Assembly: GCA_021818865.1 (NCBI GenBank)
Contig: JAKASX010000005.1
Location: forward strand, 1-64,000
Source of the DNA: Acidobacteriota bacterium
GTDB lineage: Bacteria > Acidobacteriota > Terriglobia > Acidiferrales > UBA7541
DNA length: 64,000 bases
Direction of reading: 5' to 3'
Positions within the stretch are counted from its first letter, which is position 1; every line of letters starts with the position of its first letter. Under the pieces are notes generated by a model. It saw only the letters and a program-made list of their open reading frames with translations, was not told where the DNA came from and made no database searches. The translations under genes were made by a program, and so were the position numbers. Below are positions 3,804 to 4,203 of the stretch, in pieces.

Positions 3804-3848
3804 GCGGGCGAAGGCTGGTGGGCCTGGACTGAGTCGAACAGTCGACCT
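3804..3848 (-). repeat. Direct repeat copy A: duplicated 3' end of tRNA-Ile
   Basis: 45 bases identical to 4115-4159. It contains the T-arm, acceptor 3' strand and CCA of tRNA-Ile (3816-3848) plus 12 bases of downstream DNA. Only this copy continues into a perfect hairpin (GCCCGCT at 3793-3799 with AGCGGGC at 3803-3809). This suggests it is the original gene end and that the cassette between the copies is the insertion. Confidence 0.85.
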
Positions 3849-3860
3849 TCCCGATTCACT

Positions 3861-4112
3861 TCATCGGGACGCTCTTACCAGACGCTCCAGCCAAGCATGG
3901 CTCTTCATTCGCTTCATCTGGCGCTCACGGTGGCTCGCTTCCGGGCGCGTCGCATACTCCTCCGAATAAACCAGCGCCCACGGGCCACGATTTCGGATGG
4001 AGTTGGTCCGGCCGTTGTTGTGCTCAAAGATGCGTTTTTGCAGGTTCTCGGTGTGGCCGACGTAATACCGGCCCGTCGATTGGCTCTGTAGGACGTAGAC
4101 GTGAAATGGCAT
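3861..4112 (-). CDS. Small GIY-YIG family nuclease
   Basis: An 83-residue single-domain GIY-YIG protein. VYVLQS (5-10) and RYYVG (15-19) form the signature, Arg27 in NLQKR is the catalytic Arg, and Glu63 in HRERQMK is the metal-binding Glu. Stand-alone members of this family are nucleases with mostly unknown targets. The ATG lies 14 bases past the CCA of tRNA-Ile with no Shine-Dalgarno, so it is probably read from the tRNA transcript. The stop lies 12 bases before repeat copy A. The gene thus fills the whole 311-base unit between two copies of the tRNA 3' end, which suggests a minimal mobile or homing cassette. Confidence 0.85.
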   Translation of the reverse strand: MPFHVYVLQSQSTGRYYVGHTENLQKRIFEHNNGRTNSIRNRGPWALVYSEEYATRPEASHRERQMKRMKSHAWLERLVRASR

Positions 4113-4114
4113 CT

Positions 4115-4159
4115 GCGGGCGAAGGCTGGTGGGCCTGGACTGAGTCGAACAGTCGACCT
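4115..4159 (-). repeat. Direct repeat copy B, within the intact tRNA-Ile
   Basis: 45 bases identical to 3804-3848, offset by 311 bases. This copy provides the 3' third of the functional tRNA. Its downstream edge is abrupt: after the shared GCGGGCG the hairpin arm seen at copy A is missing, and the GIY-YIG gene begins three bases on. Confidence 0.85.
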
Positions 4160-4203
4160 CACCCTTATCAGGGGTGCGCTCTAACCAACTGAGCTACAGG
4201 CCC
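4127..4203 (-). tRNA. tRNA-Ile (anticodon GAT), CCA encoded
   Basis: A full cloverleaf can be drawn. Acceptor GGGCCTG (4203-4197) pairs with CAGGCCC, the D-loop contains AGTTGGTTAGA, the anticodon loop CTGATAA sits on a CCCC/GGGG stem, and the T-loop is TTCGACT. The discriminator A and CCA are encoded. Its 3' portion is repeated downstream at 3816-3848. Confidence 0.96.

Follow-up and report, generated by a model that had tools for sequence, protein, structure and literature searches.

A small cassette that carries a GIY-YIG nuclease gene and a partial copy of a tRNA gene lies just after tRNA-Ile in the window (the whole stretch of 64,000 nucleotides that was analysed), and cassettes of this kind are found again next to many other tRNA genes, across eleven bacterial phyla or more. 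The evidence supports a mobile, tRNA-specific and self-accommodating cassette, probably a minimal element of the homing type, which has no integrase, specialises on tRNA genes and regenerates them. The element is made up of a stand-alone GIY-YIG gene and a short palindrome-bearing tail, flanked by the duplicated 3′ half of the tRNA and a few bases. Between close species the cassettes alternate between presence and absence; they duplicate the 3′ half of their tRNA, their copies decay, and the clades of their nucleases sort by target.

Parts of the cassette and its nuclease

The order of the parts is the intact tRNA, 14 nt, the nuclease gene, a 5′-truncated pseudo-tRNA with a palindrome in the place of its anticodon arm, and then the original downstream sequence (Table 1). 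The 45-base perfect direct repeat made of the end of tRNA-Ile and 12 downstream bases, which the preliminary description of this DNA reported, is exact, with a spacing of 311 between the copies; copy B is formed by the 3′ 33 nt of the tRNA and the 12 nt, and copy A includes the variable loop, T-arm, acceptor and CCA together with the same 12-nt flank. The ATG of the nuclease, as reported, lies 14 nt past the CCA of tRNA-Ile and has no Shine-Dalgarno sequence. It was also correctly observed that copy A alone runs on into a hairpin (GCCTTCGCCCGC-TCA-GAGCGGGCTTCGGC), which copy B does not, and the same continuation is found at the empty site of a sister species. The proposal that copy A is the original end of the gene is supported, native downstream sequence following the post-ORF copy as predicted. 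On the other hand, of the claim that the unit holds nothing except an 83-codon GIY-YIG gene only the gene itself stands, since the last ~31 nt consist of a D-arm remnant and the palindrome. As both of these precede copy A, this copy belongs to a longer, truncated pseudo-tRNA. The D-arm remnant doubles as coding sequence for the C-terminus of the nuclease (VRASR-stop), and the stop codon is located inside the 21-nt palindrome. No integrase gene is present inside the 311-nt unit, nor is there any DDE or HUH transposase or any inverted repeat at its ends, the GIY-YIG ORF being the sole gene; no group I intron RNA was matched by Rfam in 3300-4300, where the tRNA alone reaches its cut-off.

Table 1. 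Features of the tRNA-Ile locus, with positions in the window.
Feature	Position	Strand	Evidence
tRNA-Ile(GAT), target gene, intact	4127-4203	minus	ARAGORN; Rfam RF00005, 71.7 bits
Repeat copy B (left): tRNA-Ile 3′ 33 nt and 12 nt downstream	4115-4159	minus	45/45 identical to copy A
GIY-YIG nuclease ORF, 83 codons, single domain	3861-4112	minus	Pfam GIY-YIG, E=2.9e-15
Pseudo-tRNA D-arm remnant, GGTAAGAGCG (intact tRNA: GGTTAGAGCG)	3870-3879	minus	Sequence; likewise in sister elements
21-nt palindrome TCCCGATGAAGTGAATCGGGA, in the place of the anticodon arm	3849-3869	minus	Sequence; palindrome counts across elements
Repeat copy A (right): tRNA 3′ half and 12-nt flank, then native downstream sequence	3804-3848	minus	Matches the empty site in G003
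Native hairpin 3′ of the original tRNA; broken after copy B, whole after copy A	3787-3815	minus	Empty site L175 = gctttcgcccgc-tattt-gcgggcttcggc
Second GIY-YIG frame, other subfamily, neighbour outside the cassette	about 3447-3710	minus	Pfam E=1.2e-12; tree; context

The nuclease contains a GIY-YIG catalytic domain with its active-site residues (Pfam, alignment and model), and Y6, Y17, R27, H31, E63 and K67 are invariant across the aligned set. In an AlphaFold2 model (pLDDT 84), the 83 aa form one GIY-YIG domain, and no DNA-recognition domain or motif is present apart from it. Among solved structures, the closest are UPF0213 proteins (1zg2, E=1.4e-6), followed by fold (Foldseek) by the branched-DNA nuclease Slx1, and the model of group I intron endonucleases, TIGR01453, gives a weak match below its cut-off. 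Intact nuclease genes are under purifying selection, with dN/dS of 0.06-0.19 in four intact pairs, values that are rough at a dS that is high and near saturation. A pair that includes the broken Val copy of the sister species gives 0.62. In a tree of 165 proteins, the nucleases cluster according to their target isoacceptor, with 43 label changes against a minimum of 80 in 200 shuffles; many of its deep branches are unresolved, and the three elements of the window's own genome belong to three different target clades.

Directly downstream of the cassette lies a second GIY-YIG frame (Table 1), which was missed in the preliminary description and is absent from the empty site of the sister species. 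The ATG of its homologue reads GCG in the window, and it is flanked by direct repeats (3317-3347/3688-3718 and 3406-3444/3772-3810) that are imperfect and contain CTCCGCTGAAGCTACGGCG and GCCGAGCC motifs. Homologues of this frame at loci L082 and L087 likewise follow tRNA-Ile and tRNA-Arg(CCT). A sister clade of small GIY-YIG genes is associated with no tRNA and is located between inverted TGTCATTCCGAGCGAAGCGAGGAATCTGC-type repeats (L030, L034, L045, L055, L066, L067, L069, L071, L076, L081, L085, L086, L089 and others); inverted repeats exceed shuffles in 23 of 33 tRNA-unlinked loci, which suggests that the TGTCATTCCGAGCGAAGCGAGGAATCTGC-type palindromic repeats belong to a GIY-YIG element. The variants of this motif that were tried are not printed in the papers searched.

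Occupied sites, empty sites and recurrence

The window's own genome (G000) was compared with that of a sister species (G003), which has 90% DNA identity at the tRNA-Ile locus. The orthologous locus of G003 is formed by an aminotransferase gene, one tRNA-Ile and a penicillin-amidase gene, with no cassette, and its tRNA is followed by gctttcgcccgc-tatttgcgggcttcggctcggcaagccagcca, which, bar a few substitutions, is the window sequence after copy A. At tRNA-Ala(GGC), G003 is occupied (CCA-ttttccgc-ATG ... pseudo-tRNA-CCA-ttttccgc-attgtccag) and G000 is empty (CCA-ttttccgc-tatgtccag), so that each genome is occupied where the other is empty. Occupied and empty alleles of one site are therefore present, as compared between species, for both tRNAs, and the search of close relatives for an empty site that had been proposed in the preliminary description yields a single tRNA end without a nuclease at tRNA-Ile of G003 and at tRNA-Ala of G000. 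The duplicated stretch at both loci comprises a 33-nt tRNA 3′ end and host flank (12 nt for Ile, 8 nt for Ala), and it ends at the nuclease ATG or at most 2 bases from it. Most tRNA-Ile loci read across the family are empty. Degenerate cassette copies are found at Val and Arg in G003 and at Ala in a further genome (G002), and by analogy with homing endonucleases they would complete a cycle in which sites are occupied and the copies then decay and are lost.

The own genome harbours four small GIY-YIG frames, three of which sit 10-14 nt past a tRNA 3′ end (Ile, Val and Arg) and share one plan, the fourth being the second frame of the window. The survey covered this genome and 60 relatives (61 genomes) as well as 80 public loci, the latter retrieved via a six-sequence alignment. 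Of the subfamily members, 39 of 46 in the relatives and 61 of 75 in the public set have a tRNA on the same strand close by, mostly just upstream and less often just downstream; by our estimate, a randomly chosen gene of a genome with ~50 tRNAs has such a neighbour with a chance of about 1 in 10,000. In the 61 genomes and 80 public loci together, a small GIY-YIG gene lies downstream of a same-strand tRNA at 95 loci; the tRNA 3′ end recurs after the ORF at 71 of them, where its score exceeds those of 100 shuffles, and no duplicate was found by this criterion at the other 24. The preliminary description had proposed a systematic search for this association, and such cassettes prove to recur strongly together with duplicated tRNA ends. 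Duplicates are present in at least 11 phyla: Acidobacteriota, Bacteroidota, Verrucomicrobiota, Thermodesulfobacteriota, Armatimonadota, Nitrospirota, Methylomirabilota, Planctomycetota, Rhodothermota, Chlorobiota and Myxococcota. Cassette loci are also found in isolate genomes (several Pedobacter, and Pontibacter), and by our count tRNA-linked copies occur in about 24 of the 61 sampled genomes of the window's class. No published description of the cassette or of its anatomy was found in the open-access full texts searched.

A phage collection gave no match to the family, and the viral contigs of IMG/VR only two cassette loci. At one of these (L282, ~1930-2300), the cassette follows the 3′ part only of a tRNA-Arg, beginning at the anticodon; the attachment site of a prophage may lie inside an occupied tRNA there. 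At the other (L281, ~1895-2420), tRNA-Ala is on the opposite strand and the pseudo-tRNA bears two palindromes.

The copy after the gene is a truncated pseudo-tRNA, the anticodon arm of which is usually replaced by a palindrome. A perfect palindrome with a stem of 5 or more abuts the duplicate at 47 of the 71 loci, compared with 5.1% at random positions in the same loci. Its sequence varies by target (TCCCGAT/ATCGGGA in the Ile type, TCCCGGT/ACCGGGA in the Ala type, GGCCGACC/GGTCGGCC in the Val type, TCCGCC/GGCGGA in the Arg type and GTCGCC/GGCGAC in the Pro type), with the frame GGTTAGAGCG-palindrome-AGGTC...GGTTCG largely kept. Counts of covarying pairs in the palindromes are partly a matter of construction, the rows having been picked for perfect palindromes, and the random-position control is the fair test. 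A second count (stem of 6 or more near the copy; 45/71 against 16% in the control) is not relied on, because in several loci the intact tRNA was read instead of the pseudo-tRNA. A genome-wide search did not support the palindromes as copies of one genomic repeat, as the other genomic occurrences of TCCCG..CGGGAAGG belong for the most part to a different dispersed repeat. Among other repeats, an insertion-sequence-like end, TGTCCAGCCC(G/A)GAGAC..GGGTAACAG, lies ~10 nt past the CCA of three tRNAs or pseudo-tRNAs of G000 and G003 (L225, L024 and L001), and a dispersed hairpin repeat of G000, GGAGTCCCGACG..CGTCGGGAAGG, is unrelated to tRNAs (e.g. C58:59653-59843, C31:4120 and C104:58920).

Most duplicates carry the T-arm variant of their own locus; several tRNA-Ile T-arm variants, for example, are each matched by their own copy. 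At about a dozen loci the duplication also takes in flank beyond the CCA, up to or near the start of the nuclease, and in several of them (L103, L124, L148 and L162) it includes the tRNA's own terminator. In many Terriglobia loci, the identity of the duplicate stops at the CCA and the outer flanks differ. L003, L010, L020, L063 and L121 have tandem arrays and solo pseudo-tRNAs: either additional pseudo-tRNAs with a palindrome, on the upstream or downstream side of the real tRNA, or a second copy of the nuclease.

Possible routes of insertion

The most economical route to this anatomy is that the nuclease breaks or nicks the tRNA gene and an occupied locus then serves as the template for copying. 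A cassette-free tRNA gene would be nicked or cut, probably in or near the anticodon arm, which appears to be a natural target because it is isoacceptor-specific and erased in the non-functional copy. Repair would then copy from the occupied locus and install the cassette, and the duplicated 3′ half would restore the tRNA upon insertion. The target may be recognised partly as structured DNA, such as a hairpin or cruciform. A minimal homing element that restores the tRNA it enters had already been suggested in the preliminary description; presence/absence and duplication agree with that suggestion, the cassette proves more elaborate in carrying a pseudo-tRNA with a palindrome, and cleavage is a step that we infer. 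Against a homing-type element are the predicted lack of any DNA-binding domain beyond the GIY-YIG fold, unlike known homing endonucleases, and the loci that bear no duplicate (24/95). As the intact tRNA beside the cassette is identical to the empty target, the classical protection of an occupied allele is not explained, and the Terriglobia duplicates that end at the CCA with differing outer flanks are not accounted for by a single repair model. In addition, empty sites could be losses through recombination between the repeats, target-sorted clades could stem in part from old vertical inheritance with losses, and local gene conversion may have contributed.

A transposon-like insertion, though rather unlikely, agrees with several features of the loci. 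Two offset GIY-YIG nicks, one in the anticodon arm and the other 8-50 nt past the tRNA, would be filled in to leave a long target-site duplication, with the palindrome as the right end of the element, as in hairpin-ended elements. The borders of the duplication are indeed regular, with the palindrome on one side and the ORF start on the other; host flank is duplicated, terminators included in some loci; the sister GIY-YIG clade lies between inverted repeats; and Slx1, the closest solved fold after UPF0213, is a branched-DNA nuclease. However, the D-arm remnant in the tail also appears to be host-derived, the length of the duplication varies widely, and many loci have identical tRNA halves but different outer flanks.

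It is improbable that a free-standing nuclease gene merely settled beside a tRNA and that nuclease-induced amplification of the tRNA, as with SegB, left decayed tandem copies. Cutting by SegB causes segmental amplification of tRNA loci (PMC13096335), and the tandem arrays described above would fit such a process, but the post-gene copy is alike in many phyla (truncated, with a palindromic anticodon arm and the gene ending beside or inside it), which random remnants would not be.

Slightly less probable still is that a tyrosine integrase supplied in trans integrates a small circle by a Campbell-type process, with the part of the tRNA from anticodon to 3′ end as attachment sites. An identity block that extends from the anticodon arm of the tRNA to its 3′ end does resemble integrase attachment sites, and loci with differing flanks fit this process. 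The unit, however, has no integrase, and at L004, L024, L040, L103, L124, L148 and L162 the duplication takes in non-conserved host flank of 8-12 nt or whole terminators, which counts against such integration since an element-borne attachment site would not supply it. Finally, an assembly artefact or chance repeat, for which it may be said that most records are metagenome assemblies, has next to no probability given a 45-nt perfect repeat that ends near the ORF start and a matching empty site, and an artefact is refuted by the recurrence of like loci over many independent assemblies and in isolates (Pedobacter and Pontibacter).

Comparison with known systems and significance

For the homing-type reading, SegB is the nearest relative in action, and it shares the theme without the present anatomy. 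SegB is a larger phage protein, and the Seg family of T-even phages resembles the present one in the association of a GIY-YIG nuclease gene with tRNA genes; the present family, on the contrary, is chromosomal, with two viral-contig loci only. As a GIY-YIG homing endonuclease, SegB of T4/T6 is reported to cleave inside tRNA genes, next to which it often lies in phages, to drive the inheritance of the tRNA region (citing Brok-Volchanskaya 2008) and to have the cleavage motif RAWTSGAAC; no duplicated tRNA end with a palindromic pseudo-tRNA is reported for it (PMC13096335). On the other strand, the motif reads as the tRNA T-loop GTTCSAWTY.

Islands and prophages with tyrosine integrases also insert at tRNA genes, duplicate their 3′ end and leave the tRNA intact. 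The cassette differs from them in its lack of an integrase, its 311-nt unit and the palindrome in the anticodon arm of the second copy, and also, both in the window and at roughly twelve further loci, in that the duplication exceeds the block of identity between element and host by including host-specific flank. With I-TevI-type mobile group I introns it shares the GIY-YIG catalytic core, but it has no intron RNA and no recognition domain and is located after the tRNA rather than splicing out. UPF0213/YhbQ-like proteins and Slx1 have the same fold (and UPF0213 alone the same size class), and to our knowledge neither group is known as mobile or tRNA-linked. RAYTs, which are Y1 HUH transposases, offer in REP/RAYT elements another example of a nuclease gene linked to palindromes; the cassette differs in having a GIY-YIG nuclease and a palindrome inside a pseudo-tRNA. 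A more tentative and broader possibility is that small GIY-YIG nucleases power an unrecognised class of palindrome-associated bacterial elements, a GIY-YIG counterpart of RAYT/REP, with a tRNA branch that would recognise folded DNA and rebuild the tRNA and a sister branch located between inverted copies of the widespread TGTCATTCCGAGCG...-type palindromic repeats.

If the homing-type reading is true, the cassette, with one gene of 83 codons and ~311 nt, would rank with the smallest known autonomous mobile elements, and it would spare its host, as the essential gene into which it inserts is regenerated. Given copies in about 24 of 61 genomes of the class and the same anatomy in at least 11 phyla, such elements would explain many bacterial tRNA fragments, tRNA-linked small GIY-YIG genes and hairpin-bearing pseudo-tRNAs. 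The cassette also makes it testable how a nuclease without a recognition domain specialises on one tRNA isoacceptor.
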